A DNA stretch of 64,000 nucleotides from Lutimonas zeaxanthinifaciens (lineage in GTDB: Bacteria; Bacteroidota; Bacteroidia; Flavobacteriales; Flavobacteriaceae), in the NCBI RefSeq assembly GCF_030503675.1, contig NZ_CP129964.1, positions 372,001 through 436,000 on the forward strand. The letters are read 5' to 3'. A program made the position numbers and the translations under genes. The stretch's first letter is position 1. Each line of letters begins with the position of its first letter. Positions 17,781 to 35,648 of this stretch are shown here, one piece after another. A model generated the notes under the pieces. That model was not told where the DNA came from and ran no database searches. It was given only the letters and a program-made list of their open reading frames with translations.

Positions 17781-17844
17781 AATTGAGTACCCAATATACC
17801 CTAGATTGAGTATTGATTACGGTTACAATGTTGAGTACATTCAA
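17781..17844 (+). promoter_or_regulatory. Shared operator and promoter A
   Basis: The 38-bp conserved element is at 17781-17818; its fixed blocks are AATTGAGTA, CAATATAC and GAGTATTGATT, with 2- and 8-bp variable gaps. It contains the dyad ATACCC-TAGATT-GAGTAT. The TTG at 17813-17815 serves as -33, and after exactly 20 bp TACATTCA (17836-17843) serves as -7. A further TTGAGTAC overlaps the -7 box. Drives the lipoprotein gene starting at 17865. Confidence 0.7.
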
Positions 17845-17864
17845 TTTTCTTTAAATCTCTCGTT

Positions 17865-18368
17865 ATGAAAAACTTTTTTTCAAAACTTGGTATCCTTGTA
17901 ATCTTATGTCTAAGTCTGACAATTATCTCTTGCAATGGAGATGATGATGGTGATATCAATAACCCTGAGCCAGTAAATCAAACTTTTTTCGAGAAATATG
18001 ATGGAGCGGTTTGGAGAGGCGAGACTTATCAGGGATGGGTTTATTTGAGGCTTAATTCTAATCCTAATATTATTCTTGAGAATTGGTTAGATGATCAAAA
18101 TGGGGATTGTTATTATTATTCTATTGGTTACGAATCTTGGTTTTCTCAAACTGTAAAAATTCTTGAAAATAGTTCCGATTTGTTAATCTTAGAAGTTACC
18201 CTTCTTGAAGATGTGGGTGGCGGAGCTCCAGAAGAATTTATTTATGTAATAAATTTTACTGTTTCAGGTAACAAACTTAAAACAGTTTCAGAAGGTTCTG
18301 ATGGAATTGAAATAATAGAATGGGATAAATCAAGTTTCGATGTTTCTAATTTAACAATCTGCGAATAA
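17865..18368 (+). CDS. Surface lipoprotein, short member of the mosaic group
   Basis: 167 residues. The signal peptide ends ISC (Cys23) followed by NGDDDGD, an acidic surface-export signal. Residues about 32-55 (EPVNQTFFEKYDGAVWRGETY) are closely related to the same region of the 21.85-kb lipoprotein (KPVDQTFLENYHGTVWKGETT). The remaining ~110 residues are beta-rich, with tryptophans and two late cysteines, and match no family I know. It shares its promoter element with the lipoprotein genes at 18659 and 21853, so all three are probably co-regulated. Confidence 0.7.
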   Translation: MKNFFSKLGILVILCLSLTIISCNGDDDGDINNPEPVNQTFFEKYDGAVWRGETYQGWVYLRLNSNPNIILENWLDDQNGDCYYYSIGYESWFSQTVKILENSSDLLILEVTLLEDVGGGAPEEFIYVINFTVSGNKLKTVSEGSDGIEIIEWDKSSFDVSNLTICE

Positions 18369-18480
18369 GCAATTTTTGTTTCAATTAAATCTTTACTAAT
18401 GGTTCCAAGGTCCTGATTAAAATGAAATTTAGTTCTATAGGATCCACGGAGTTATTCCAGCATCTCCGCAAAATTTTCAA

Positions 18481-18565
18481 AAAAATAAAACTGAATTCGA
18501 TAGGTCATTGGGATCGTTTTCCTGCATACAGATCCAAAACTTTTTTAGGTTTTTCTCATTAACTG
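18481..18565 (-). repeat. Degenerate repeat element, copy 2
   Basis: Second copy of the relic described at 17691-17770. Both copies run directly into the same TTTAGGTTTTTCTCA stretch upstream of the operator/promoter element, so relic plus promoter may have been duplicated as one block. Minus-strand reading gives ENDPNDLSNSVLFF followed by a stop. Confidence 0.45.
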
Positions 18566-18573
18566 CACTTCTG

Positions 18574-18636
18574 AATTGAGTATCCAATATACTCATTAGA
18601 GAGTATTGATTCAGATTGCTTTGATGAGTATCTTCA
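18574..18636 (+). promoter_or_regulatory. Shared operator and promoter B
   Basis: Second copy of the 38-bp element (18574-18611). Here the core dyad ATACTC-ATTAGA-GAGTAT is a perfect inverted repeat. The -33 TTG lies at 18606-18608 and TATCTTCA at 18629-18636 after exactly 20 bp. Drives the 909-residue lipoprotein at 18659. Confidence 0.72.
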
Positions 18637-18658
18637 TCTTTTTTCTAATCCTCTCGTT

Positions 18659-21388
18659 ATGAAAAAGTTATTATCCTACCTGATAGCCTTATTTCTAATT
18701 GTCTTAGCATGTTCTGATGACAATGATGAACCTCAAATCACATTAAAATACAACTTGACAACGGAAGTAACTCCTGATGGTGGAGGTACAATTTCCCCCG
18801 CATCGGGTTCCTATAATGAAGGTCAAAAAGTAACACTTACGGCTAAGCCATCTGATGGCTTCACATTTAAGAACTGGTCCGGAGCAGCAAATGGATCTGA
18901 GCTAACAACGACTGTTACAATGTCCAGTCATAAAAAAGTGATAGCCGTTTTTGAAAAAATTAGTGAAGAAGCAAACACATATGTAATGAGTAATGATGAC
19001 TGGATCAAATATTTTCAGAGTTACGATGACATTGAAAACGAGTTGTTTTTCGATAAAGCCATCTTGGATGAGTATGATCTTGTTGTTGGTGATTACATAG
19101 TGAATACTTTGGACGGTGGACTACTCGCTAAAATTAAAGAGGTAATAACTCCTAATAATTCTGATAACATTAGGATAGTATTGGCTTCAGATCCCTCTAT
19201 TACAGAAGCTTTTGAAGAGCTTCATGAAGAATTAAGCAGTGAAATAAGCATTGATTTAAATGATCCCGGTTTTTGGGTGGATGAAGGTATAACTGTAACT
19301 GAAAGTGCCTCGAAAGGTGAAGATTTAGAAAAGGTAATAACTGTTGGGATGGAATATATATTTTATGATTCTGATGGAAATAAAAGCACCGATGGAGATC
19401 AGATTAGATTTGACGGATCTTATACATTGAGCGCTGGAATGGATATTGATTTTGATATTTCCAAACATGAATTGGAAAAACTTGAAATTGGGATTCCAAT
19501 GAATCAATCGGTTAATTTCTTAGGTCAGATTGGAGCAGTAAGTACAATGGAATCCGAAAAACTATTAACAACTATACCATGTGCGGATATTGTTGTTGGT
19601 CCTGTTACAATTCAACCCGTAATCGAGATAAAGGGTGGTGTTAAGCTCGATTTATCCAGCTCTTTAAAGATGGAGTATAACTATAAAAAAAATAGTTACA
19701 CGGAAATGTTATATAATGGAAGCGATTGGACGACAACTAAATCATTGTTAGAGGAAAATGGTTTTAGTGATCCTGAGATTAGTGCGGGTATCAAAACAAA
19801 ACTTTATATCAAGCCCGAGATTAAATTTAAAATATACAGAACACTTTCCCCTTACGTTGACGTAGAACTGGCGGGTAAAGCAGACGTAAATATCAATCAG
19901 GACAACCTATATTGGAAATTATATGCAGGATTTGGATTAGGAGCAGGAGTGAAAATGGAGATATGGAAAAAATCCTTGTTTGACTTCTACTTCAAAGCAT
20001 ATGAAAAAGAAGTTCTTATTAAAGAAGGTCAATTTTTAAGTGAGCAAAAGACATATGTGCCAGATGATAATTTCGAAAAGGCATTGATAAACTTGGGCTT
20101 AGATGATATTTTGGATGACTATGTCTTGACTTCGAAAATAAATAATATAAAAATTTTAGAAATCCCAAACTTGAACATCAGTGATTTAACGGGTATAGAG
20201 GATTTTGTCAGTCTTGAAGATTTGTGGTGCTCTGACAATAATATAACCAGTGTAGATGTTAGCAATTTAAAGAATCTAAAACAATTAACAATTAGTAGGA
20301 ATAGATTAACATCTTTAGATGTATCCAAGAATGCAGAACTCCTTGGTCTCAGTGTCCACGTCAATGAATTGACTTCTATAAATGTTAATAACAATACTAA
20401 ACTTTGGGTTTTGGAATGTGATGGAAACCCAATAAGTTCATTGGATGTAACTAATAACCTTGAGCTTAGAACTTTATTCTGCGGTTCTCAAGCTTTACAA
20501 GGCGAATTGGATCTTAGTAACAACTCTAAAATCATCGAATTTGACTGTGCTGATTCAAATATAACCAGTCTTGACTTGAAAAATGGAAATAATAAAAATA
20601 TGGAATACTTTGGTAGTAAGAACAACCCTAATCTATTTTGTATCCAAGTTGATGATGCTGCGTGGTCGAATCAAAACTGGAGTACACTAAAAGATTCCCA
20701 AGCGAAATTCTCAGAAGACTGTTCAAATTCCAATGGAAATGGCACAACAGGATTAATAGCCTATTACCCTTTTAACGGTAATGCTCAAGATGAATCAGGT
20801 AATGGTAATCATGGAACAATAAATGGTGCTACTTTAACTGCGGATAGAAAGGGTAATTCAAATTCTGCGTTTCTATTTGAAGATTCTGGAAATCAACGTA
20901 TTTCATTGAATAATCAAATCGATATGGTGGCAAGGGAAAATTTTTCAGTCGCGGCATGGATTAGATTGGATGCTACATTAACTAATTCTGGGGATGGCGA
21001 ACATCAGTCAATTATTGGCCAAGGAAGAGGTACATCTTTTAGCTCAAATTATCCTTTTTGGCTTACTGTCAGTTCATCTGGAAGAATATCGTATAAACGG
21101 AATAGTCCCGGAGTTCAATCAGATGCATTTTTCTATCCTGATGATAAACAGTGGCATTTTGTAGTAATTACAACTGAAGGTAATCAAGGAAAGATTTATT
21201 TTGATGGCGAACTTCTTGCCTCTGGAAAAACTGGAAATGCAAGTAGTTCATCGTATCAAATTTCTATTGGTAATTTAGGTGAGACGACTGGAACTTATGG
21301 AAATACATTCAATGGCGCTATAGATGATGTAAGAATTTATGATCGGATTCTTAGTCCTGATGAAATTAATTCGTTGTTCTCAGAGTAA
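18659..21388 (+). CDS. Surface lipoprotein with InlB-type, LRR and LamG-like domains
   Basis: 909 residues. A lipoprotein signal with Cys18 is followed by SDDNDE. Domains in order: an InlB B-repeat-like module (about 30-100, GGGTISPASGSYNEGQ...FKNWSG); a large unassigned beta-rich region (100-460); the cap YVPDDNFEKALINLGLDD (from ~466); Bacteroidota-type leucine-rich repeats of about 21 residues (about 490-660, LxxLxCSxNxITSxDVSN); and a C-terminal LamG/concanavalin-like jellyroll (about 698-905, GLIAYYPFNGNAQDESGNGNHG ... IDDVRIYDRILSPDEINSLF). These are protein- or glycan-binding modules, so a surface adhesin or binding protein is likely. The C-terminal domain is closely related to that of the 21.85-kb lipoprotein. 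Confidence 0.82.
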   Translation: MKKLLSYLIALFLIVLACSDDNDEPQITLKYNLTTEVTPDGGGTISPASGSYNEGQKVTLTAKPSDGFTFKNWSGAANGSELTTTVTMSSHKKVIAVFEKISEEANTYVMSNDDWIKYFQSYDDIENELFFDKAILDEYDLVVGDYIVNTLDGGLLAKIKEVITPNNSDNIRIVLASDPSITEAFEELHEELSSEISIDLNDPGFWVDEGITVTESASKGEDLEKVITVGMEYIFYDSDGNKSTDGDQIRFDGSYTLSAGMDIDFDISKHELEKLEIGIPMNQSVNFLGQIGAVSTMESEKLLTTIPCADIVVGPVTIQPVIEIKGGVKLDLSSSLKMEYNYKKNSYTEMLYNGSDWTTTKSLLEENGFSDPEISAGIKTKLYIKPEIKFKIYRTLSPYVDVELAGKADVNINQDNLYWKLYAGFGLGAGVKMEIWKKSLFDFYFKAYEKEVLIKEGQFLSEQKTYVPDDNFEKALINLGLDDILDDYVLTSKINNIKILEIPNLNISDLTGIEDFVSLEDLWCSDNNITSVDVSNLKNLKQLTISRNRLTSLDVSKNAELLGLSVHVNELTSINVNNNTKLWVLECDGNPISSLDVTNNLELRTLFCGSQALQGELDLSNNSKIIEFDCADSNITSLDLKNGNNKNMEYFGSKNNPNLFCIQVDDAAWSNQNWSTLKDSQAKFSEDCSNSNGNGTTGLIAYYPFNGNAQDESGNGNHGTINGATLTADRKGNSNSAFLFEDSGNQRISLNNQIDMVARENFSVAAWIRLDATLTNSGDGEHQSIIGQGRGTSFSSNYPFWLTVSSSGRISYKRNSPGVQSDAFFYPDDKQWHFVVITTEGNQGKIYFDGELLASGKTGNASSSSYQISIGNLGETTGTYGNTFNGAIDDVRIYDRILSPDEINSLFSE

Positions 21389-21451
21389 TTTTTCGGAGCT
21401 GAAGACATAGAAATAATCTAACTCGGGTGATACTCCATTCGGGTTTATCAT

Positions 21452-21700
21452 TCACCCCTTACGCACCAGTAGGGGGTTTTTCTTTCCCATAAGCCAGACG
21501 GATATTTTCTCAGGCGTATTTCCTTTATATGACAAAGAGCAAGTATCAATCATTTGTTCGATTCGATAAATAATTGATTTCCCCAACTCCTCAATCATCT
21601 CATCTAACTCCATATTCCAATACTTCGATCGATTAGCATTTATCTTTTCTTGTTGTTCTAGGTGCGTATCGAAATAGTCTACAAGTTCTTGTAAGGTCAT
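21452..21700 (-). CDS. Small unknown protein
   Basis: 82 residues from the ATG at 21700 (an in-frame TTG lies at 21706). The sequence is hydrophilic, helical and charged (TLQELVDYFDTHLEQQ...YWNMELDEMIEELGKSIIYRIEQMID), with no signal or membrane segment and no recognised family. A perfect -7-like box TAGCTTTG lies on this strand at 21711-21704, only three bases from the ATG, which supports expression and suggests a very short or absent leader. It is convergent with the 18.66-kb lipoprotein and divergent from the 21.85-kb one. Confidence 0.45.
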   Translation of the reverse strand: MTLQELVDYFDTHLEQQEKINANRSKYWNMELDEMIEELGKSIIYRIEQMIDTCSLSYKGNTPEKISVWLMGKKNPLLVRKG

Positions 21701-21703
21701 TGT

Positions 21704-21711
21704 CAAAGCTA
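21704..21711 (-). promoter_or_regulatory. -7 box (TAGCTTTG) of the 82-residue gene
   Basis: Exact match to TAnnTTTG on the minus strand; the ATG follows three bases later. No TTG at the expected -33 position was found, so this is a partial promoter call. Confidence 0.4.
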
Positions 21712-21769
21712 AAAAGAAGTTAACTAATTGAGGTAAGGAAAAGCCTAACGATTAGTAGGGAAATATCAA

Positions 21770-21832
21770 AATTGAGTACTCAATATACCCTAGGATGAGT
21801 ATTGATTAAACAATTGATATTCAATAGCTTTA
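21770..21832 (+). promoter_or_regulatory. Shared operator and promoter C
   Basis: Third copy of the 38-bp element (21770-21807). It has TTGAGTACTCAA as a perfect 12-bp palindrome at 21772-21783 and the dyad ATACCC-TAGGAT-GAGTAT. The -33 TTG is at 21802-21804, and TAGCTTTA at 21825-21832 follows after exactly 20 bp. Because the TTG at 21802 belongs to this promoter, translation of the next gene should start at the ATG at 21853. Confidence 0.72.
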
Positions 21833-21852: not shown

Positions 21853-23895
21853 ATGAAAAAGTTATTATCCTACCTGAGACTCTTATTTCTAATTATATTA
21901 TCTCTTTCAATTTCAGGCTGTGGAGATGATGATGGTGATGTCATTGACCCCAAACCAGTTGATCAAACATTTTTGGAAAACTATCATGGGACAGTTTGGA
22001 AGGGAGAAACGACTATAGATTATGCTGATAAGGGGAAAGTTTATATTCAGAGTTATATAAGATTTAGAGATTCGCAGACTGTACCTGCTGAATTATGGGA
22101 CGAAGATCCAGATTTTGATAATACATGCTACGATTCAGATCGACTTGACTTAAAAGATTTGGGAGATGGAGGAATACTGGAAAATTTAAATAACAAGTTA
22201 AAAGTCTTTTATACTGAAACATCTGGAATTGGTTCTGAGGGAGAAACGTTATATTCTGCTACGATAACGTTTACTGTTCAAGGCGACAACCTATCTGTCA
22301 ATTTTGTCTGGGATGATCTTTCAAATGATGAATCCGGTACTGAAAATTACTATTTTAAAAGATCTTCCGTTAATCCGGAAGTTTTGCCAGTTTGCGATTA
22401 TAATGCAGGGCCAGCTGAATTGCCTGATATCAATATTGTTGATTTAAAAGATGACTCTAATTGGGATTACTGTGTTTTTGGTAAAGAGGATTATTTTTTT
22501 ATAAAAAGTAAAGGCTCTTTACCTGAATCTGTTTTGTACTATTCATCTGAAGCAGATAAAAATTACTCAATTTTTTTCTCTGATGATGGAAACATTGATA
22601 AAGTGATTGTAGATGACCACATATTTTTACTAAAAAATCCTAATGGCAATAAAATTGATTTGGGTGTAATTTATCCGGATGGAAATATTGAGGTGTTTCG
22701 TGACCTGGTGACAGCTTATGATTGGGACAACAATCAACTAAAGAATCAAAAAAAATCAATACAGGAATGGAGTGATGTAATAAGATGGACGGGAAGGATT
22801 GTTTCGGGAGTTCCTTGTTTCATATCTGCTTGGGCTGCTGTAGCTACAGCTGGAGTTGGAACACCACTTGCTTTATGGGCATGTGGAAATTATTTATTGG
22901 GGCTAACGGTAGATATACTTGAAAATGAATTTGAAATTCATAATGGTTTTACAGATGTTGTAGATGCCTATGGTACAAATGCAGCAATTGGGTCATGTAG
23001 CTCTGGAGTAGATGGCTTTGTGGAATGTGCCAGTGGTTTAACTTCAAAAGCTTTTTCTCAATGGGCGGATCATAGAGAAGAAATTGAAAATAGGAATAAT
23101 GAAGTTCAATACGCAGATGATAGGTTAGAAAATGTATCTGAAGAAGAACCTACTGAGAACTTAATGGCATACTATCCAATGAACGGAAACCCAAATGATA
23201 ATTCTAATAGTCGCAATCATGGAAATATATATGGGAATGCTTTACTAACTGAAGATCGATTTGGAAATGTTAATAATGCCTACAATTTCCAACAATCTAG
23301 TACGGAAATGCAGTATATAGAATCAAGCTTTGATTATAACTTCAATCCTGCCGGGGAATTTTCTTTTTCTATTTGGTTCAATTGGGACGGGAAGGATTTT
23401 TGGTATAAATCGACAGTAGACAAAAAAAATCAAACAACTGCGTACGCTGGGCTTTTGGGCATAGGTGTTAATGAATCAAGTGGTCACTGTTATAATAGTG
23501 GTCCAACGAGATTTTATTTAAATGTGTGGAACACCGGTCAACTTGCTATCCAATATTCTCCTGGAGGTTGCAATTCGCTAAACGGTCAAAGTCTCAAGAC
23601 CGATGAAAATCTTTTCTCGTCAAATAGCTGGAACCATGCTGTAGTGACTCATGATGGGAAGGGGAATTTGAAAATATATTTAAACAACAAATTAGTTGCC
23701 TCTAGAGATGATCATAGCTTGGATTTGAATAACTTTTCGTCCAAAATAAATATTGGGAATTTTCATAGCTATTTTTATTCTTCAACTTATCCTAGAGGAA
23801 ATACAAGGCAACTTTTTTCGGGGAAAATTGATGATGTAAGAATTTATGATAGAAAACTATCTCAAGACGAAATAAACTCTCTTTTTTATGAATAA
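21853..23895 (+). CDS. Surface lipoprotein, mosaic, with C-terminal LamG-like domain
   Basis: 680 residues from the ATG at 21853; an in-frame TTG at 21802 lies inside the promoter element and is rejected. The lipobox ends SGC (Cys23) followed by GDDDGD. The N-terminal part (about 24-50) matches the short lipoprotein at 17865, while the signal start (MKKLLSYL) and the C-terminal LamG-like domain (about 436-680, LMAYYPMNGNPNDNSNSRNHG ... IDDVRIYDRKLSQDEINSLF) match the one at 18659. Between them is an unassigned region with a hydrophobic stretch near 310-350 (VPCFISAWAAVATAGVGTPLALWACG). It looks like a recombinant of its two neighbours. Probably a surface binding protein. Confidence 0.78.
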   Translation: MKKLLSYLRLLFLIILSLSISGCGDDDGDVIDPKPVDQTFLENYHGTVWKGETTIDYADKGKVYIQSYIRFRDSQTVPAELWDEDPDFDNTCYDSDRLDLKDLGDGGILENLNNKLKVFYTETSGIGSEGETLYSATITFTVQGDNLSVNFVWDDLSNDESGTENYYFKRSSVNPEVLPVCDYNAGPAELPDINIVDLKDDSNWDYCVFGKEDYFFIKSKGSLPESVLYYSSEADKNYSIFFSDDGNIDKVIVDDHIFLLKNPNGNKIDLGVIYPDGNIEVFRDLVTAYDWDNNQLKNQKKSIQEWSDVIRWTGRIVSGVPCFISAWAAVATAGVGTPLALWACGNYLLGLTVDILENEFEIHNGFTDVVDAYGTNAAIGSCSSGVDGFVECASGLTSKAFSQWADHREEIENRNNEVQYADDRLENVSEEEPTENLMAYYPMNGNPNDNSNSRNHGNIYGNALLTEDRFGNVNNAYNFQQSSTEMQYIESSFDYNFNPAGEFSFSIWFNWDGKDFWYKSTVDKKNQTTAYAGLLGIGVNESSGHCYNSGPTRFYLNVWNTGQLAIQYSPGGCNSLNGQSLKTDENLFSSNSWNHAVVTHDGKGNLKIYLNNKLVASRDDHSLDLNNFSSKINIGNFHSYFYSSTYPRGNTRQLFSGKIDDVRIYDRKLSQDEINSLFYE

Positions 23896-27247: not shown

Positions 27248-28003
27248 ATGGATGACAAATTAGATTTAAGAACTCATTTATTTAACTATTACTCGGGAAC
27301 CTTAAGGGAAATATCAGATCTTAAATCGGAATTAAGAAAAGATTTTAATGACATTAAGGATTTTCCTGTTATAAAAGGTAAACAGTGCCTTTATGTAATG
27401 AACTGGGGCATTTCTAAAATTACATTTGCTAAAGGTGTAGAGGAAATGACCGGATATTCTGTAGATGATTTTGAGAAAAGGGTAATGGGTGAATTTATCC
27501 ACCCGGATGACAAACCGATCGTGGAAAGGATTATCAAAGGAGGTATGGATCATATCATCGATAATATGATCGACACCAATACGGTGCATCACTTAATGAC
27601 CTACCGGATTCAAAAAAAGAATGGAGAATACCTGAAAGTACTGAGAAAAACCTGTGTTTACGAAAGAGACGATAAAAATGTCATGCTCAGTAATCTTTCG
27701 ATGCTGACAGATATTTCCTTTATGAATAATTCAAACAAGGTCGATTGGGATTTGAGCATCAAAGACCTGAATATTGAAGACTTAAGAGAAAAAATTAAAA
27801 AAAGATTTCTTGGATTTTTTAGTGATCGGGAGATGGAAATTATCATGCTGATAAGAGATGGTCTATCAAGCAAAGAAATTGCCAACAAAGTGCATATAAG
27901 CAACCATACTGTTTCAACCCATCGAAAGAATATTTTAAGGAAGAGCGGTTGCCATAATTCGGCAGAACTGATGTCTTTCTGTAGGCAAAATGGAATATTT
28001 TAG
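27248..28003 (+). CDS. PAS-LuxR transcriptional regulator 1
   Basis: 251 residues. A central PAS fold (about 45-160: YVMNWGISKITFAKGVEEMTGYSVDDF...IHPDDKPIVERII...YRIQKKNGEYLKVLRKTCV) is followed by a C-terminal LuxR/GerE helix-turn-helix (about 188-250: FSDREMEIIMLIRDGLSSKEIA...SNHTVSTHRKNILRKSGCHNSAELMSF). No receiver domain is present, so signalling is probably by ligand or protein contact to PAS. A paralogue lies convergently 15 bp away. Given the dyad operators before nearby surface-protein genes, this pair is the best local candidate for binding them. Confidence 0.85.
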   Translation: MDDKLDLRTHLFNYYSGTLREISDLKSELRKDFNDIKDFPVIKGKQCLYVMNWGISKITFAKGVEEMTGYSVDDFEKRVMGEFIHPDDKPIVERIIKGGMDHIIDNMIDTNTVHHLMTYRIQKKNGEYLKVLRKTCVYERDDKNVMLSNLSMLTDISFMNNSNKVDWDLSIKDLNIEDLREKIKKRFLGFFSDREMEIIMLIRDGLSSKEIANKVHISNHTVSTHRKNILRKSGCHNSAELMSFCRQNGIF

Positions 28004-28018
28004 CGAGTCATGTCTATT

Positions 28019-28786
28019 CTAAATAATTCCATCCCGAATACACTTGGTGACTAAATGAACCGTGTTTTTCACATCCGCTTTTCTCAGAATATTTTTTCGA
28101 TGCGTTTTTACGGTGTGTTCAGAAATATATAATTGCTCAGCTATTTCTTTGATGGATAATCCTTTTGATATTAAATCGATAATTTCAACTTCTCTTCCTG
28201 AAAACTCGTTTTTTTCCTTTAATCCAATTTTATTTGTTGATTGGGAATAATAAGATGGATATTTAAAGCTAATGAAAGAAACCTTATGGTCTATAGGAGC
28301 TTTTAAATAGGATATGTCAGTGTGTACTCCGATAACTTTCATAAGCCTGCCATCATCTGTAACAGATAATGCTTTGGCCTGATGAAGAATTGTTTTCGTT
28401 ACACCTGATTTAGTCATAATTCTGTTCAGATAAACAACTTTATAATCGATGATTTGTTCAGGAGATATTTTTCTGAAAAGAAAATCAGAGGCCAGCCTCT
28501 CTTTGTCATGCATTCTGTTCAGATCCTCGGGGTGGTAACATTCTAGCATTTTTTCAAGTGAAAAATTTTCAGGATCGATTTCTAAAACCGTTTTCACTGC
28601 TTCAGAGACGTATTCCATTTTTAAAGTTGCAAAATTGAAGACATAGTAATAAAAGGAACCTGATGCAAAAAATTGACTAACGGTATCAATTATATTGTGA
28701 TCACTGTTAATGATTTCATCTTTATCAATATAATTTTGATCTCTCCAATATTTTTTGAGTTGATAAATACTCCGTGAATGATTCAA
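28019..28786 (-). CDS. PAS-LuxR transcriptional regulator 2
   Basis: 255 residues, paralogous to the convergent gene at 27248. A PAS-like sensor (about 45-165: YYYVFNFATLKMEYVSEAVKTVLEI...CYHPEDLNRMH) and a LuxR helix-turn-helix (about 193-255: FSGREVEIIDLISKGLSIKEIA...SEHTVKTHRKNILRKADVKNTVHLV) are clear. The frame has no ATG between an upstream stop and the TTG at 28786-28784, so translation probably starts at that TTG. It is transcribed away from the promoter that serves the 29.1-kb secreted-protein genes, with operator D in the shared intergenic region. Confidence 0.85.
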   Translation of the reverse strand: MNHSRSIYQLKKYWRDQNYIDKDEIINSDHNIIDTVSQFFASGSFYYYVFNFATLKMEYVSEAVKTVLEIDPENFSLEKMLECYHPEDLNRMHDKERLASDFLFRKISPEQIIDYKVVYLNRIMTKSGVTKTILHQAKALSVTDDGRLMKVIGVHTDISYLKAPIDHKVSFISFKYPSYYSQSTNKIGLKEKNEFSGREVEIIDLISKGLSIKEIAEQLYISEHTVKTHRKNILRKADVKNTVHLVTKCIRDGII

Positions 28787-28932: not shown

Positions 28933-28982
28933 AATACCCATTTAAGGGTATTGACATGAACTATCCCCGAAGTATATCTTGC
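28933..28982 (+). promoter_or_regulatory. Operator and promoter D (perfect dyad)
   Basis: A perfect inverted repeat AATACCC-ATTTAA-GGGTATT at 28933-28952 overlaps the -33 TTG (28951-28953). A -7-like TATCTTGC at 28975-28982 follows after 21 bp. The dyad ATACYC-N6-GRGTAT and its position over -33 match promoters A, B and C, though the sequence left of the dyad differs. The likely transcript covers the 29.08-kb and 29.5-kb genes after a leader of about 95 bases. Confidence 0.65.
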
Positions 28983-29081: not shown

Positions 29082-29495
29082 ATGATGAAAAAAAAAGTAC
29101 TCTGCCTGGTTCTGACGCTTTTCCTGGTCAGTCTGGCCAGTTATAACCTTTCAGCCCAAAACTACGATCCCCTCAGTCCCGATATTGAATGGAAGCCCCT
29201 TCTGGAGCAGAAGCAGGTGACTATTCTATATGCCATTGGAAAATGTGATGCTACTGACAAACTGTTTCTGAAAGTGACAAACATGAATTCCGGTTTCGCG
29301 GTGACTCATTTTATGCTGACAACCAATCAAAGTACGATAAGCATTCCTGTTCTTTTATCAATTGAATCGCGTCAAGAACTGGACATCAATTGCGTGAATC
29401 AGTTTCAGATTCCCGAACTGCTCACTTTTGAAATAAGCAGTGCTTCGTCTTTTACATGCGCTGCCAGCGAAGTTAAAATTGATCTATACCCTTAA
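29082..29495 (+). CDS. Small secreted protein of unknown function
   Basis: About 137 residues starting at the ATG at 29082 (or 29085). A signal peptide ends near residue 27 (YNLSAQ). The mature part is a short beta-rich domain with three cysteines (KCDATDKLFLKVTNM...INCVNQF...SFTCAASEVKIDLYP), possibly an Ig-like strand-exchange fold. It lies 12 bp before the 2046-residue T9SS protein and is almost certainly in the same operon, so it may be a partner or accessory of that surface protein. Confidence 0.7.
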   Translation: MMKKKVLCLVLTLFLVSLASYNLSAQNYDPLSPDIEWKPLLEQKQVTILYAIGKCDATDKLFLKVTNMNSGFAVTHFMLTTNQSTISIPVLLSIESRQELDINCVNQFQIPELLTFEISSASSFTCAASEVKIDLYP

Positions 29496-29507: not shown

Positions 29508-32500
29508 ATGAAAAACAAATATTCACAGAATGTATGGATAGGTCAATTCTCAACTTTCAATAAATTGTATCGCCTGATTTTAATGCTGGTTTTCCTTATC
29601 CCAATGAAAATGAGCGGGCAAGATGACATGTATGGAATGACACGGGCGGGGGGCTCAGACGACCTTGGAACAATTTTTAAAGTGGATGGTGAAGGTAACA
29701 ATCAAGCTCTAACTTCATTTAATACAAATTATCCCGGTGGTCTTCCCTTTGAAAACCTCACCCAGGCCGATAACGGGAAACTCTATGGAATGACATATGT
29801 GGGAGGAACCTCTGATCAAGGCGTGATCTTTGAATATGACCCCGTAACCGGAATGTATTCCAAAAAATTCGACTTTAATAACACCAACGGCGCCCGCCCC
29901 CAGGGAAGCCTTACCCGGGCCGATAACGGAATATTCTATGGAATGACATACCATGGAGGAGCCTTTAGTCGCGGCGTGCTCTTTGAATACGACCCAACAG
30001 CCGGAACCTATACCAAAAAAATCGATTTTAATGGTATAAACGGACAGAATCCATACGGAAGTCTCACACTAGCTGATAGCGGTAAACTCTATGGTATGAC
30101 TGTTAGTGGAGGAACATATGGCCAAGGTGTGCTCTTTGAATACGACCCAACAGCCGGAACCTATACCAAAAAAATCGATTTTAATGGTTCAAACGGCGCC
30201 AGGCCCCAGGGAAGCCTTACCCAGGCCCCTAACGGAAAACTCTATGGAATGACATATGTGGGAGGAACATATGGCCAAGGCGTGCTCTTTGAATATGACC
30301 CTTCAACAGGAAACTATACCAAAAAAATCGATTTTAATGGTACAAACGGCGCCAGGCCCCAGGGAAGCCTTACCCAGGCCGCTAATGGGAAACTCTATGG
30401 AATGACTGCTAATGGAGGAGTCTTTGATCGAGGCGTGCTCTTTGAATACGACCCAACAGCTGGAACCGATACTAAAAAAATCGACTTTGATTTAACCAAC
30501 GGCGCCAATCCCTATGGAAGTCTTACCCAGGCCGCTAATGGAAAACTATATGGAATGACTGTTAATGGAGGAGTCTTTGGTCGCGGCGTGCTGTTTGAAT
30601 ATGTCCCCACAACCGAAACCTATACCAAAAAATTCGACTTTGATTTAACCAACGGCGCCAATCCCTTTGGAAGCCTCACCCAGACCGTTAACGGCAAACT
30701 TTACGGAATGACTCGTAATGGGGGAGCAAGTTTCCGAGGCGTTCTCTTCGAATATGATCCCACTACCGGAAACTATACCAAAAAACTCGATTTTAATTAC
30801 GCCCCGAAAGGTGCTAACCCCAATGGAGGCCTCACCCATGCAGATAACGGCAATCTCTATGGAATGACTCTTAATGGAGGAGTCTTTGGTCGCGGCGTGC
30901 TCTTTGAATATGATCCCGTGACCGGAACCTATACCAAAAAACACGACTTTGATTTAACTAACGGCGCCAATCCCTATGGAAGTCTTATCCAGGCCTCTAA
31001 TGGAAAACTCTACGGAATGACTAGTAATGGTGGAACATATTTCCGAGGCGTGCTTTTTGAATATGACCCTTCAACCGGAAGCTATACCAAAAAAATCGAT
31101 TTTAATGGTACAAACGGACAGAATCCATACGGAAGTCTTATCCAGGCCGTGAATGGAAAACTCTACGGGATGACTTCTTCTGGAGGAGCATCGGTTCGCG
31201 GCGTGCTGTTTGAATACGACCCAACAGCTGGAACTTATACCAAAAAGCTCGATTTTAATGGTACAAACGGTCAGAATCCATATGGAAGCCCCACCCAGGC
31301 CGCTAACGGCAAACTCTATGGAATGACATTTTTGGGAGGAACATCTAATCGCGGCGTGCTGTTTGAATATGACCCCGCAACAGGAAGCTATATTAAAAAA
31401 ATCGATTTTAATGGCGCTTCCAACGGCGATATTCCTCGAGGAGGTCTGACCCCGGCCACTAACGGAAAACTCTACGGAATGACAGTTGGTGGAGGAAGCG
31501 CTGGGCGAGGAGTGTTGTTTGAATACGACCCAATAGCCGGAACCTATACCAAAAAGCTCGATTTTGATGGTATCAATGGTCAGAATCCATATGGAAGCCT
31601 CACCCAGGCCGCGAATGGAAAACTCTACGGAATGACTCTATCTGGAGGAACAACTTATGGCGGCGTGCTGTTCGAATATGACCTATCAACAGGAGGCTAT
31701 ATTAAAAAAATCGATTTTAATGGCGCTAACGGACAAAATCCATATGGAAGCCTTGTCCAAATAAATTCAGGATGCATTGCAGGGGCTCCAACCCCTGATA
31801 TATCCCAACTGAAAGATTTAGAAGATCAATGCTCTGTAGAAGAACCCGAAGCTCCAACGGCGACGAATAACTGTGGTGAAACACTTATCGGCACCACCGA
31901 GACTGTTTTCCCTATATCTGAACAAGGTGAAACCACCATCATTTGGACATTTGACGATGGAAATGGCAATGTGTCAACTCAATCACAAAAGGTTATAATT
32001 ACAGATACCGAAAAACCTAAGTTTGATGCGGCCTCTCTACCCACCGATCAGCTCGGTGTCGATATGGACGCCAAGGCCTGTGGAGCCACCATCACCTTTG
32101 CTGATCCAACAGCTACTGATAACTGTGACCCTACCGTTACCGTGGTCAGAACAGATAACACCAACTTAAACTCGGGTGACCTCTTCCCTGAAGGGGAAAC
32201 CATTATCAGTTATAAAGTAACAGATGCTGCCAGTAATGAAAGTACCTACAGTTTCAAAGTATCGGTCAATCCCGATGCTGAGAAACCTGAATTTGTCGTG
32301 GCCTCTCTACCCACCGATCAGCTCGGTGTCGATATGGACGCCAAGGCCTGTGGAGCCGCCATTACCTTTGCTGATCCAACAGCTACTGATAACTGTGACC
32401 CTACCGTTACCGTGGTCAGAACAGATAACACCAACTTGAACTCCGGTGACCTGTTTCCTGAAGGAGAAACCATTATCAGTTATAAAGTAACAGATGCTGC

Positions 32501-35500
32501 CAGTAATGAAAGTACCTACAGTTTCAAAGTATCGGTCAATCCCGATGCTGAGAAACCTGAATTTGTCGTGGCCTCTCTACCCACCGATCAGCTCGGTGTC
32601 GATATGGACGCCAAGGCCTGTGGAGCCACTATCACCTTTGCCGATCCAACAGCTACTGATAACTGTGACCCTTCCCTCACCGTGGTGCGTAGCGACAACA
32701 CAGGTCTGAACTCCGGAGACCTGTTCCCTGAAGGAGAAACCATTATCAGTTATAAAGTAACAGATACTGCCAGTAATGAAAGTACCTACAGTTTCAAAGT
32801 ATCGGTCAATCCCGATGCTGAGAAACCTGAATTTGTCGTGGCCTCTCTACCCACCGATCAGCTCGGTGTCGATATGGACGCCAAGGCCTGTGGAGCAACC
32901 ATTACCTTTGCTGATCCAACAGCTACGGATAACTGTGACCCTACCGTTACCGTGGTCAGAACAGATAACACCAACTTGAACTCCGGTGACCTGTTTCCTG
33001 AAGGAGAAACCATTATCAGTTATAAAGTAACAGATGCTGCCAGTAATGAAAGTACCTACAGTTTCAAAGTATCGGTCAATCCCGATGCTGAGAAACCTGA
33101 ATTTGTCGTGGCCTCTCTACCCACCGATCAGCTCGGTGTCGATATGGACGCCGGGGCCTGTGGAGCAACCATCACCTTTGCCGATCCAACAGCTACTGAT
33201 AACTGTGACCCTACCGTTACCGTGGTCAGAACAGATAACACCAACTTGAACTCGGGTGACCTGTTTCCTGAAGGAGAAACCATTATCAGTTATAAAGTAA
33301 CAGATGCTGCTAGTAATGAAAGTACCTACAGTTTCAAAGTATCGGTCAATCCCGATGCTGAGAAACCTGAATTTGTCGTGGCCTCTCTACCCACCGATCA
33401 GCTCGGTGTCGATATGGACGCCAAGGCCTGTGGAGCCGCCATTACCTTTGCTGATCCAACAGCTACGGATAACTGTGACCCTACCGTTACCGTGGTCAGA
33501 ACAGATAACACCAACTTGAACTCCGGTGACCTGTTTCCTGAAGGAGAAACCATTATCAGTTATAAAGTAACAGATGCTGCCAGTAATGAAAGTACCTACA
33601 GTTTCAAAGTATCGGTCAATCCCGATGCTGAGAAACCTGAATTTGTCGTGGCCTCTCTACCCACCGATCAGCTCGGTGTCGATATGGACGCCGGGGCCTG
33701 TGGAGCAACCATCACCTTTGCCGATCCAACAGCTACTGATAACTGTGACCCTACCGTTACCGTGGTCAGAACAGATAACACCAACTTGAACTCGGGTGAC
33801 CTGTTTCCTGAAGGAGAAACCATTATCAGTTATAAAGTAACAGATGCTGCCAGTAATGAAAGTACCTACAGTTTCAAAGTATCGGTCAATCCTGATAAAG
33901 AGAAACCAGTTATTAGTTGTGCCGGTGCCGTTACAGTAGCAACAGATAAAGGATTCTGTACCGCAAGTAACGTTAATCTGGGAACTCCTCAATTCAGCGA
34001 CAACTGCTCTGATGTAACAGTGAGCAATGATGCTCCCACTGTCTTCCCATATGGAATCACAGATGTAACATGGACGGCAACAGACCAAGCGGGTAACAAA
34101 TCGACCTGCATTCAAAAAGTAATCGTGAATAAAGTGATGACGATTACAAGTATTGATGTCAACATAACGTCCCAGCAATACAGTGACAAGGTTACTTTTA
34201 CTGCGAACATCAAGCAAGGTGAATGCAGTATAGCTGGACAAGCGGCCCAAACCGTTTCCTTTTTCGCGGGCACCCAAAATTTGGGCACGGTTAACCTGAC
34301 GAAAAGCGGTGAGAAGTTGATCGGAACCTTAACAGCTCCTTTGCTTGAGAGTCCCTCCCAACCCTCAAACGGTCAAATGGCTCCCGGAGTTCATGTCGTA
34401 GAGGCCCGATTTGGTGGTGTGAATTCTAATTTTACGGTTTCCAACCCTAAAACAAGTATCAATATCCTGCGAGAGGATGCCATTGTTGAATATACGGGCC
34501 AAACTCTTCAAGCCACAGAAAGTTCAAAATCAGGTTTGGCAACCATTCAACTAAGCGCAAATATTCAGGATATCACTGCAACCAACACTCTCATCGATCC
34601 AGATGCTGGTGATATCAGAAATGCAAAAGTGAAATTCGTTAATCGTGATACGAATTCTGACATTTCCGGTTGGATTCAGGTCCAGGACCTACTGAACAGT
34701 TCAGATTCAAAAACCGGTGCTATCTCCTTTAATTGGAATGTAGATATTGGTTCTCAGGAATCAGAATCTTTCACATTGGGAATATTGGTAGACTCCGGAT
34801 ATTACTATCGAAATAGTTCAGATGATAATGTATTGATTACCGTATACAAACCCGTCGGTGATTTTATTACGGGTGGAGGTTTTATTATACCTTTAAATGC
34901 TTCAGGAAGCTATGTTACAGGAATTGGACTCAAAACAAATTTTGGTTTCAACGTAAAGTACAATAAAAAAGGCACCAAGCTAAGAGGACATATGAACGTC
35001 ATTTTCAGAAGTCAGGAAAATGATGGTTTGCATACATATCAGATAAAAGGAAATGCCATTCAGTCTCTAGGTGTAAATATTGCAGACAACGAAATGAAAA
35101 CAGCAGAATTCATAACAAAATCCAATTTGAAGGATATCACTGATCCATTGAATCCAATCGACTTAGGTGGTAATCTTACTTTAAAAGTCGTTATGACCGA
35201 TAGAGGTGAACCAGGTATGGATGACTCGATTGCAATTGAACTTACTAACAAAAGGAATAAGCTGTTGTACTCCAGCTCTTGGACGGGTATCAATACGGCG
35301 CAAACAACTATTGGTGGAGGAAATGTTTTGGTTCATAGCGGTTTTAGTCTTGGATATGGAGAAACAGTTGTTAAAGCAACTGTAAACAAAGAAATTATAA
35401 AAGATATTTTCAAAGTTAATTCATGGCCAAATCCATCAGACAATTACTTTAATATTGAATTTAAAACTTCAAACTTTGAAGATATGATCAATATTTACGT

Positions 35501-35648
35501 ATTTGATCTAGCCGGTAGAATGATTCTTAAAAAGCAAAGTTTGCCTAATGCAAAGCTTGAGCTAGGAAGTTCATTTACTTCAGGAATTTATCTGGTCAAA
35601 GTAATTCAGGGTGATAAAAATGAGCAATTGAGATTGATTCGAAAATAG
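29508..35648 (+). CDS. Giant T9SS surface protein: GloVer repeats and seven HYR repeats
   Basis: 2046 residues. An N-terminal signal (RLILMLVFLIPMKMSGQ, ending ~residue 37) precedes 14 GloVer-type repeats of about 47-50 residues (LYGMTxxGGxxxxGVLFEYDPxTGxYTKKxDFNGxNG, about 40-755). A short HYR-like module follows. Then come seven consecutive 90-residue HYR repeats (about 842-1462: SLPTDQLGVDMDAKACGATI...DNCDPTVTVV...EGETIISYKVTD), another HYR (about 1463-1545), Ig-like domains, a beta domain beginning GDFITGGGFIIP (~1785), and a T9SS sorting tail (SWPNPSDNYF...GIYLVKVIQGDKNEQLRLIRK). GloVer repeats are expected to form a propeller-like structure and HYR repeats a rod. Likely a surface adhesin. 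Confidence 0.87.
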   Translation: MKNKYSQNVWIGQFSTFNKLYRLILMLVFLIPMKMSGQDDMYGMTRAGGSDDLGTIFKVDGEGNNQALTSFNTNYPGGLPFENLTQADNGKLYGMTYVGGTSDQGVIFEYDPVTGMYSKKFDFNNTNGARPQGSLTRADNGIFYGMTYHGGAFSRGVLFEYDPTAGTYTKKIDFNGINGQNPYGSLTLADSGKLYGMTVSGGTYGQGVLFEYDPTAGTYTKKIDFNGSNGARPQGSLTQAPNGKLYGMTYVGGTYGQGVLFEYDPSTGNYTKKIDFNGTNGARPQGSLTQAANGKLYGMTANGGVFDRGVLFEYDPTAGTDTKKIDFDLTNGANPYGSLTQAANGKLYGMTVNGGVFGRGVLFEYVPTTETYTKKFDFDLTNGANPFGSLTQTVNGKLYGMTRNGGASFRGVLFEYDPTTGNYTKKLDFNYAPKGANPNGGLTHADNGNLYGMTLNGGVFGRGVLFEYDPVTGTYTKKHDFDLTNGANPYGSLIQASNGKLYGMTSNGGTYFRGVLFEYDPSTGSYTKKIDFNGTNGQNPYGSLIQAVNGKLYGMTSSGGASVRGVLFEYDPTAGTYTKKLDFNGTNGQNPYGSPTQAANGKLYGMTFLGGTSNRGVLFEYDPATGSYIKKIDFNGASNGDIPRGGLTPATNGKLYGMTVGGGSAGRGVLFEYDPIAGTYTKKLDFDGINGQNPYGSLTQAANGKLYGMTLSGGTTYGGVLFEYDLSTGGYIKKIDFNGANGQNPYGSLVQINSGCIAGAPTPDISQLKDLEDQCSVEEPEAPTATNNCGETLIGTTETVFPISEQGETTIIWTFDDGNGNVSTQSQKVIITDTEKPKFDAASLPTDQLGVDMDAKACGATITFADPTATDNCDPTVTVVRTDNTNLNSGDLFPEGETIISYKVTDAASNESTYSFKVSVNPDAEKPEFVVASLPTDQLGVDMDAKACGAAITFADPTATDNCDPTVTVVRTDNTNLNSGDLFPEGETIISYKVTDAASNESTYSFKVSVNPDAEKPEFVVASLPTDQLGVDMDAKACGATITFADPTATDNCDPSLTVVRSDNTGLNSGDLFPEGETIISYKVTDTASNESTYSFKVSVNPDAEKPEFVVASLPTDQLGVDMDAKACGATITFADPTATDNCDPTVTVVRTDNTNLNSGDLFPEGETIISYKVTDAASNESTYSFKVSVNPDAEKPEFVVASLPTDQLGVDMDAGACGATITFADPTATDNCDPTVTVVRTDNTNLNSGDLFPEGETIISYKVTDAASNESTYSFKVSVNPDAEKPEFVVASLPTDQLGVDMDAKACGAAITFADPTATDNCDPTVTVVRTDNTNLNSGDLFPEGETIISYKVTDAASNESTYSFKVSVNPDAEKPEFVVASLPTDQLGVDMDAGACGATITFADPTATDNCDPTVTVVRTDNTNLNSGDLFPEGETIISYKVTDAASNESTYSFKVSVNPDKEKPVISCAGAVTVATDKGFCTASNVNLGTPQFSDNCSDVTVSNDAPTVFPYGITDVTWTATDQAGNKSTCIQKVIVNKVMTITSIDVNITSQQYSDKVTFTANIKQGECSIAGQAAQTVSFFAGTQNLGTVNLTKSGEKLIGTLTAPLLESPSQPSNGQMAPGVHVVEARFGGVNSNFTVSNPKTSINILREDAIVEYTGQTLQATESSKSGLATIQLSANIQDITATNTLIDPDAGDIRNAKVKFVNRDTNSDISGWIQVQDLLNSSDSKTGAISFNWNVDIGSQESESFTLGILVDSGYYYRNSSDDNVLITVYKPVGDFITGGGFIIPLNASGSYVTGIGLKTNFGFNVKYNKKGTKLRGHMNVIFRSQENDGLHTYQIKGNAIQSLGVNIADNEMKTAEFITKSNLKDITDPLNPIDLGGNLTLKVVMTDRGEPGMDDSIAIELTNKRNKLLYSSSWTGINTAQTTIGGGNVLVHSGFSLGYGETVVKATVNKEIIKDIFKVNSWPNPSDNYFNIEFKTSNFEDMINIYVFDLAGRMILKKQSLPNAKLELGSSFTSGIYLVKVIQGDKNEQLRLIRK
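29626..31760 (+). repeat. Fourteen GloVer-type repeats (about 141-150 bp each)
   Basis: Tandem in-frame repeats with the invariant core YGMT..GG....GVLFEYDP and a variable second half. Several units share long identical DNA stretches, indicating recent duplication or gene conversion between units, while the residue pair after GG (TY, VF, AS, TS) varies most and may form a variable surface. Confidence 0.9.
32030..33894 (+). repeat. Seven nearly identical 270-bp HYR-coding repeats
   Basis: The marker string CCACCGATCAGCTCGGTG recurs at 32041, 32311, 32581, 32851, 33121, 33391 and 33661, an exact 270-bp period. Units differ by only a few bases; unit 3 is the most diverged (PSLTVVRSDNTGL), and units 5 and 7 share the same DAGACGAT variant, suggesting duplication of a two-unit block. 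Such an array should change copy number easily by recombination. Confidence 0.95.

Follow-up and report, generated by a model that had tools for sequence, protein, structure and literature searches.

Why should three neighbouring genes for predicted surface lipoproteins of Lutimonas zeaxanthinifaciens be preceded by nearly the same 38 bp, and is the shared sequence confined to them? In order to answer this, we analysed a window of 64,000 nt (NZ_CP129964.1, positions 372,001–436,000; assembly GCF_030503675.1, termed the own genome below) and searched related genomes. A preliminary description had placed copies of the element at 17781–17818, 18574–18611 and 21770–21807 (all +). All three are present, with the same length and register, although 29 rather than 28 of the 38 positions proved invariant upon recounting. 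Their common layout is GAGTA-N7-TACYC-N6-GAGTA-TTG-N20-TAnnTT. In copy 1 the upstream half-site GAGTA lies at 17785–17789, the dyad TACCCTAGATTGAGTA at 17797–17812, TTG at 17813–17815 and, exactly 20 bp on as had been claimed, the −7-like box TACATT at 17836–17841 (+). The corresponding positions are 18578–18582, 18590–18605 (TACTCATTAGAGAGTA), 18606–18608 and 18629–18634 (TATCTT, +) for copy 2, and 21774–21778, 21786–21801 (TACCCTAGGATGAGTA), 21802–21804 and 21825–21830 (TAGCTT, +) for copy 3. The perfect dyad of copy 2 (ATACTC-N6-GAGTAT), the direct repeat of GAGTA 23 bp apart in every copy and, for copies 1 and 2, the third GAGTA overlapping the beginning of the −7 box were likewise borne out. 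The full TTTG of a TAnnTTTG box is found in none of the three, and TAnnTT in all.

The downstream genes are gene 1 (17865–18368, +; 167 aa), gene 2 (18659–21388, +; 909 aa, with InlB-type B-repeat, LRR and LamG domains) and gene 3 (21853–23895, +; 680 aa, with an N-terminal domain like gene 1 and a C-terminal LamG domain). All are predicted lipoproteins, with a lipobox cysteine in a signal-like N-terminus by a crude rule (IISC, then NGDDDGD, in gene 1). In Bacteroidota, the surface export signal of lipoproteins consists of acidic residues just after this cysteine; the sequences CNGDDDGD, CSDDNDEP and CGDDDGDV (genes 1–3) fit this signal, which makes the three putative surface lipoproteins. Pfam and NCBIfam searches returned no match for gene 1, and a search for related loci with it as query found none; it is like gene 3 in the latter's N-terminal part (39 % across residues 1–140 of the query). 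Divergent from copy 3 is an 82-aa ORF (MTLQELVDYFDTH...MELDEMIEELG; 21452–21700, −) without a match in Pfam. A similar ORF (L087:3524–3727) and repeated fragments occur in an array that also holds dyads in G025, another genome of the genus, where, at loci L087 and L090, small genes with repeated flanking sequence and intervening dyads form cassette-like arrays, conceivably of integron type.

The likeness of the elements is beyond chance: for one strand of 64 kb, a simple binomial with the window's base composition predicts ∼2 × 10−6 pairs with at least 34 of 38 identities. Copies 1 and 2 are alike in their flanks and not in the element alone (31/38 within it, 30/38 in the upstream and 24/38 in the downstream 38 bp), having ∼40 bp of upstream DNA and part of the leader in common, and thus stem from a duplication that included upstream DNA. 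Copies 2 and 3 (29/38, with 9/38 upstream and 15/38 downstream) are alike in the opening ∼25 bp of their coding regions. Such shared stretches would suit a mere trace of recent gene-family duplication, involving no special regulator; yet copies 1 and 3 agree at 35 of 38 positions within the element and at only 10/38 and 16/38 beside it, copy 3 having nothing beyond the element and the start of the coding region in common with the others. Moreover, the exact dyad was upstream of none of 11 inspected paralogue loci (from a listing of 18 places, 16 of them besides genes 1 and 3; a twelfth inspected locus, L176, is gene 1 itself, and L167 has a 1-mismatch site within an ORF), and the motif recurs in the same promoter phase at unrelated genes, as described below. 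A duplication trace is accordingly a very improbable explanation. From the same inspection, the element was rejected as a marker of the lipoprotein family.

A NarL-like inverted repeat and its recurrence

With TACYC-N6-GRGTA as its core, the element contains a 7-2-7 inverted repeat, TACYCNN-NN-NNGRGTA, in which heptamers with TACCC-like half-sites stand 2 bp apart. As described for NarL, a protein with a GerE helix–turn–helix, inverted heptamers 2 bp apart are the preferred site, an engineered version being TACCCCTAAAGGGGTA (PMC4549865). The earlier statement that no named system was known for the set was thus too strong, the layout being that of sites for NarL, the nitrate regulator of E. coli, and its kind; the element is very probably a GerE-type operator.

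In searches of the whole genome and of relatives, TACCCTNNNNAGGGTA matched 5 times in the own genome (reversed control 1), 12 times in G025 (control 0) and 5 times in G094, from another genus of the same family (control 0). Any match at all was found in 18 of 149 family genomes, the 15 besides these three holding only one or two, and the exact dyad with TTG was absent from 16 of 22 genus genomes, many of them incomplete. When one mismatch was allowed the own genome gave 13 matches vs 5 in the control; for the 20-base core at two mismatches the counts were 47 + 41 vs 27 + 27, for which reason weak matches are mostly background. Of the proposed three-gene set, the shared element stands and the limit to three genes does not, the class occurring in the genus and in at least one other genus. 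Within the window itself a fourth dyad, TACCCATTTAAGGGTA (exact core TACCCATTTAAGGGTATTG; 28935–28950, +), had been missed; it is followed by TTG at 28951–28953 and TATCTT at 28975–28980, has the letters TACCC/GGGTA with no third half-site upstream, and precedes a gene with a signal-peptide-like start (29082–29495). After that gene comes a secreted-looking protein of 2046 aa (29508–35648) with many near-identical repeats (GKLYGMT...; then ...DAKACGATITFADPTATDNCD...).

Fixed spacing to the −7 box

The geometry was assessed at every exact TACYC-N6-GRGTA that no called ORF covers, in the window plus 27 loci (28 sources); this gave 37 dyads and 74 oriented sites. TANNTT lay at offset 23 past the dyad at 18 of the 74 oriented sites (the three copies included), compared with a background of 1.1 % per oriented non-ORF position; offset 22 accounted for 4 and offset 24 for 1, and no other offset from 0 to 59 exceeded 4. 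With the three copies set aside, 20 of 34 dyads had TANNTT at 22–24 vs 6.6 % expected (one orientation), and 17 of 31 did so against the same expectation after removal of like pairs, a figure derived by subtracting three pairs picked by hand from the scripted count. By source, the proportion was 5/8 in the own genome, 5/6 in G094, 1/1 in Lutimonas saemankumensis and 5/6 in other genus members, whose dyads were drawn from a search requiring TTG and not the −7 box. The poor fit was G025, at 4 of 13 non-coding dyads, set against a chance background that is not G025-specific. Single exact dyads from the 15 other family genomes, with one locus inspected in each and the second dyads of G007 and G114 left out, had TANNTT at 22–24 in three of five cases outside ORFs and in one of ten within them. 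Across the 22 genus genomes, 9 of 12 dyad-plus-TTG matches (11 listed, plus copy 2) showed TANNTT at N19–21; the control figures were 64 of 2867 for window TTGs and 15 of 163 for those in a portion of the intergenic DNA. Sites with one mismatch before PAS-LuxR clusters (L094:1590 in the own genome and L086:4460 in G025) also read TTG-N20-TANNTT.

As the distance from dyad to −7-like box is fixed at many sites and before unrelated genes, a shared operator/promoter element is well supported, and the random placement relative to genes that would have refuted it was not seen; its sequence, geometry and phase, recurrence and proximity to regulator genes are directly seen. That the dyads are instead a short mobile or repeat element (a palindromic repeat or cassette junction) might be read from the several G025 dyads lying in small-gene arrays with repeated flanks, but neither the fixed distance nor the different flanking sequence around dyads in other genera agrees with this, and we hold it to be extremely improbable.

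The Flavobacterium sigma-A promoters described in two reports have a TANNTTTG −7 box at −12 to −5 (PMC6847099, PMC9723704). Because of this box position (PMC6847099), the dyad would be centred at ∼−43.5, a place in the −40s as reckoned from the predicted boxes. Repression from the same GerE-type operator, by a dimer over −51 to −36 that blocks RNA polymerase until its release induces the genes, would suit a dyad that abuts TTG, as well as the G025 dyads, most of which are without the −7 spacing; 7-2-7 sites can indeed repress, as NarL does at frdA from −4/+6 in the sites described (PMC4549865). The sharp 23-bp offset, however, puts the dyad where the same account has the sites of NarL-activated napF (−40 to −49) and yeaR (−38 to −47) (PMC4549865), and repressor sites need no such fixed phase. 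Repression is therefore the unlikely mode and, given a GerE-type operator, the bound protein is quite probably an activator.

Genes behind the sites and candidate regulators

Beyond the three copies, 14 of the 20 dyads with fitting geometry precede, in the right orientation, genes with signal-like starts or for GerE regulators; a signal-like start was found in 10 of 70 background ORFs by a crude signal-peptide rule, and genes near dyads were named from a greedy ORF caller (ATG, 100 aa) rather than curated annotation. These 14 comprise the secreted protein behind 28935 in the window, secreted-protein or lipoprotein genes at L093, L101, L103, L104 and L105, a curlin-repeat gene in each of G149 and G151, the 345-kb PAS-LuxR pair and its counterpart in L. 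saemankumensis, two PAS-LuxR genes of G025, a response regulator (3.36 Mb) and, in G094, a kinase-like gene with a GerE gene behind it. At L103, L108 and L114 the gene starts 350–400 bp from the dyad. In G149 and G151 (L108 and L114), ∼350 bp separate the curlin-repeat gene, called by a Pfam run on the G151 protein only, from an upstream dyad that is followed by TTG, N20 and a −7 box perfectly matching TACATTTG. The six without such a target are L099:6646, L100:5439, L087:7117 (wrong strand), L109, L111 and L110; one of the four geometry-fitting dyads of G025 points, by its strand, away from the secreted gene beside it. At L109 and L111 (G150 and G157) the dyad promoter is just 3′ of a PAS-LuxR gene, alike in both genomes, and points into ∼300–430 bp without an ORF of 60 aa, possibly a small RNA or peptide. 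Of the eight exact G025 dyads lacking the −7 geometry, six still precede secreted-protein or lipoprotein genes (two by eye), which suggests that these dyads act otherwise or use other boxes. By eye, the sites at 541511 in the own genome and C12:180610 in G025 precede lipoproteins of like N-terminal sequence.

GerE regulator genes carry the 7-2-7 site too, and the nearest variants of the element sit at such genes. Among the 74 oriented sites, GRGTA occurs 11–12 bp upstream of the dyad at six (∼0.3 expected): the three copies (spacing 12), the promoter of the PAS-LuxR pair (12) and both sides of the 3.36-Mb response regulator gene (11 instead of 12, with CAT or TGG in place of TTG). Because, among 37 dyads, only their loci share the three-half-site layout, the PAS-LuxR pair (345–346 kb) and/or this response regulator are likely regulators of the element; taken jointly, we consider it likely from the sequence that the cognate regulator is one of them. 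Half-site letters (GAGTA/TACTC) favour the response regulator, and spacing favours the PAS-LuxR pair. The only named relative found in a scan with a PAS-LuxR protein was L. saemankumensis (Flavobacteriaceae), whose PAS-LuxR pair has its own dyad, with a −7 box at 23 and, by eye, GAGCA at 12. Exact matches to the three-half-site pattern numbered three in the own genome, at two of the copies and at the PAS-LuxR promoter; with two mismatches the pattern was not above control (6 + 10 vs 14 + 28). A related pattern, TTGAGTAN{5,6}ATACYC, gave five own-genome matches on one strand (reversed control 0), namely two copies, the two sites flanking the response regulator and one within an ORF; this search is blind to copy 2, which was counted additionally.

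Both the response regulator and the PAS-LuxR protein have GerE domains, with NarL as a match among solved structures. The response regulator (L100:2640–5407, ∼3.36 Mb) combines a BtsR/LytR-like receiver with a GerE output beside a PF06580-type (LytS-type) kinase and, by its predicted domains, is an output-domain swap. The nearest homologue of this regulator, a G150 protein of 64 % identity, is preceded by TTGAGTA boxes and by the repeat CCCTCAA-AA-TTGAGGG, an array that differs from that in the own genome yet is supportive. Co-occurrence of the response regulator with TTGAGTA arrays was considered and rejected: of 13 matches in 22 genomes, nine were inspected, eight of which lay within ORFs and the ninth (L183, G153) outside ORFs of at least 80 aa, the remaining four being two window copies and the two sites flanking the response regulator.

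The window also contains two GerE-type regulator genes of its own, a PAS-LuxR gene (PAS_3 + GerE; 27248–28003, +), itself a candidate regulator, and a second (28019–28786, −) divergent from the fourth dyad. The three lipoprotein genes could answer to these neighbours rather than to distant regulators, given that they lie ∼3–11 kb away, that a dyad promoter stands between 28019–28786 and the next secreted gene, and that their recognition helices (HTVSTHRKN and HTVKTHRKN) are close to those of the other candidates. Their own dyad at 28935, however, has no third half-site and has the letters TACCC/GGGTA, and similar proteins in G150 and G157 (by eye) adjoin TACCCCC dyads; we find control by the neighbours unlikely.

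Proposed mechanism and relation to known systems

The best explanation, which we consider likely, is that each 38-bp element would form part of a Bacteroidota sigma-A promoter and serve a GerE-type regulator as an activator-binding array. A NarL-type dimer (GerE/LuxR helix–turn–helix) would bind TACYCNN-NN-NNGRGTA, centred at ∼−43.5 and adjoining the −33 TTG, and would contact RNA polymerase and recruit it to the TAnnTT −7 box that starts 23 bp past the dyad, while the extra half-site 12 bp upstream may hold a further subunit or tune affinity. The three surface lipoproteins would thereby be switched on together, and the same code would also operate at the genes of other secreted proteins and of the regulators themselves. 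Here binding, activation over repression, the identity of the regulator and its signal are what we infer from the sequence. The element probably belongs to a wider control network as one of its switches. More tentatively, and with rather less than even likelihood, there might be a family-wide 'NarL code' in Flavobacteriaceae, in which PAS-LuxR and kinase-coupled GerE regulators are cross-wired by one half-site vocabulary (GAGTA vs GGGTA, half-site number and spacing) and control surface remodelling. Its possible targets would be the lipoproteins, the curlin-repeat protein and other secreted proteins, and the cascade might be fed by the response regulator with BtsR/LytR-like receiver and NarL-type output.

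A literature search at summary level found no operator for Bacteroidota PAS-LuxR regulators and no earlier account of the Bacteroidota promoter context, the three-half-site array, the surface-protein targets or the PAS-LuxR link. For these regulators, a candidate operator sequence, a promoter geometry, a target-gene list and a regulator short list are now supplied, which makes the regulon directly testable.

Among known systems, CsgD belongs to the FixJ/LuxR family and regulates biofilm and curli in E. coli. The likeness lies in a GerE-type regulator with surface-structure genes, including the curlin-repeat genes of G149 and G151 behind dyad promoters; unlike CsgD, the window PAS-LuxR protein scores 29.2 bits vs a cut-off of 250, and no csgD orthologue is claimed. 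With the BtsSR/LytSR two-component systems the response regulator locus shares the PF06580 kinase domain and a BtsR/LytR-like receiver, but its output is GerE, no LytTR was found and scores are below curated cut-offs. The Flavobacterium sigma-A promoters described are alike in the −7 box, as predicted here, and its position (PMC6847099, PMC9723704), whereas here an operator dyad is phased to that box. The E. coli NarL 7-2-7 promoters (napF, yeaR and the engineered narG −89/−89 site) share, in the account available, inverted heptamers 2 bp apart, TACCC/GGGTA half-sites, a site in the −40s (the position predicted here) and a GerE-type output domain (PMC4549865). The present elements differ in their Bacteroidota promoter (TTG/TAnnTT), surface-lipoprotein targets, third half-site 11–12 bp upstream and GAGTA half-site variant, and in candidate regulators that are PAS-LuxR proteins or a receiver–GerE regulator beside a LytS-type kinase; against the NarL model itself (NF007935, cut-off 250) the response regulator reached 81.8 bits and the window PAS-LuxR protein 29.1. 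The working principle is thus already known from NarL-type sites and, if the proposed mechanism is true, the NarL way of promoter binding works with the divergent Bacteroidota sigma factor.
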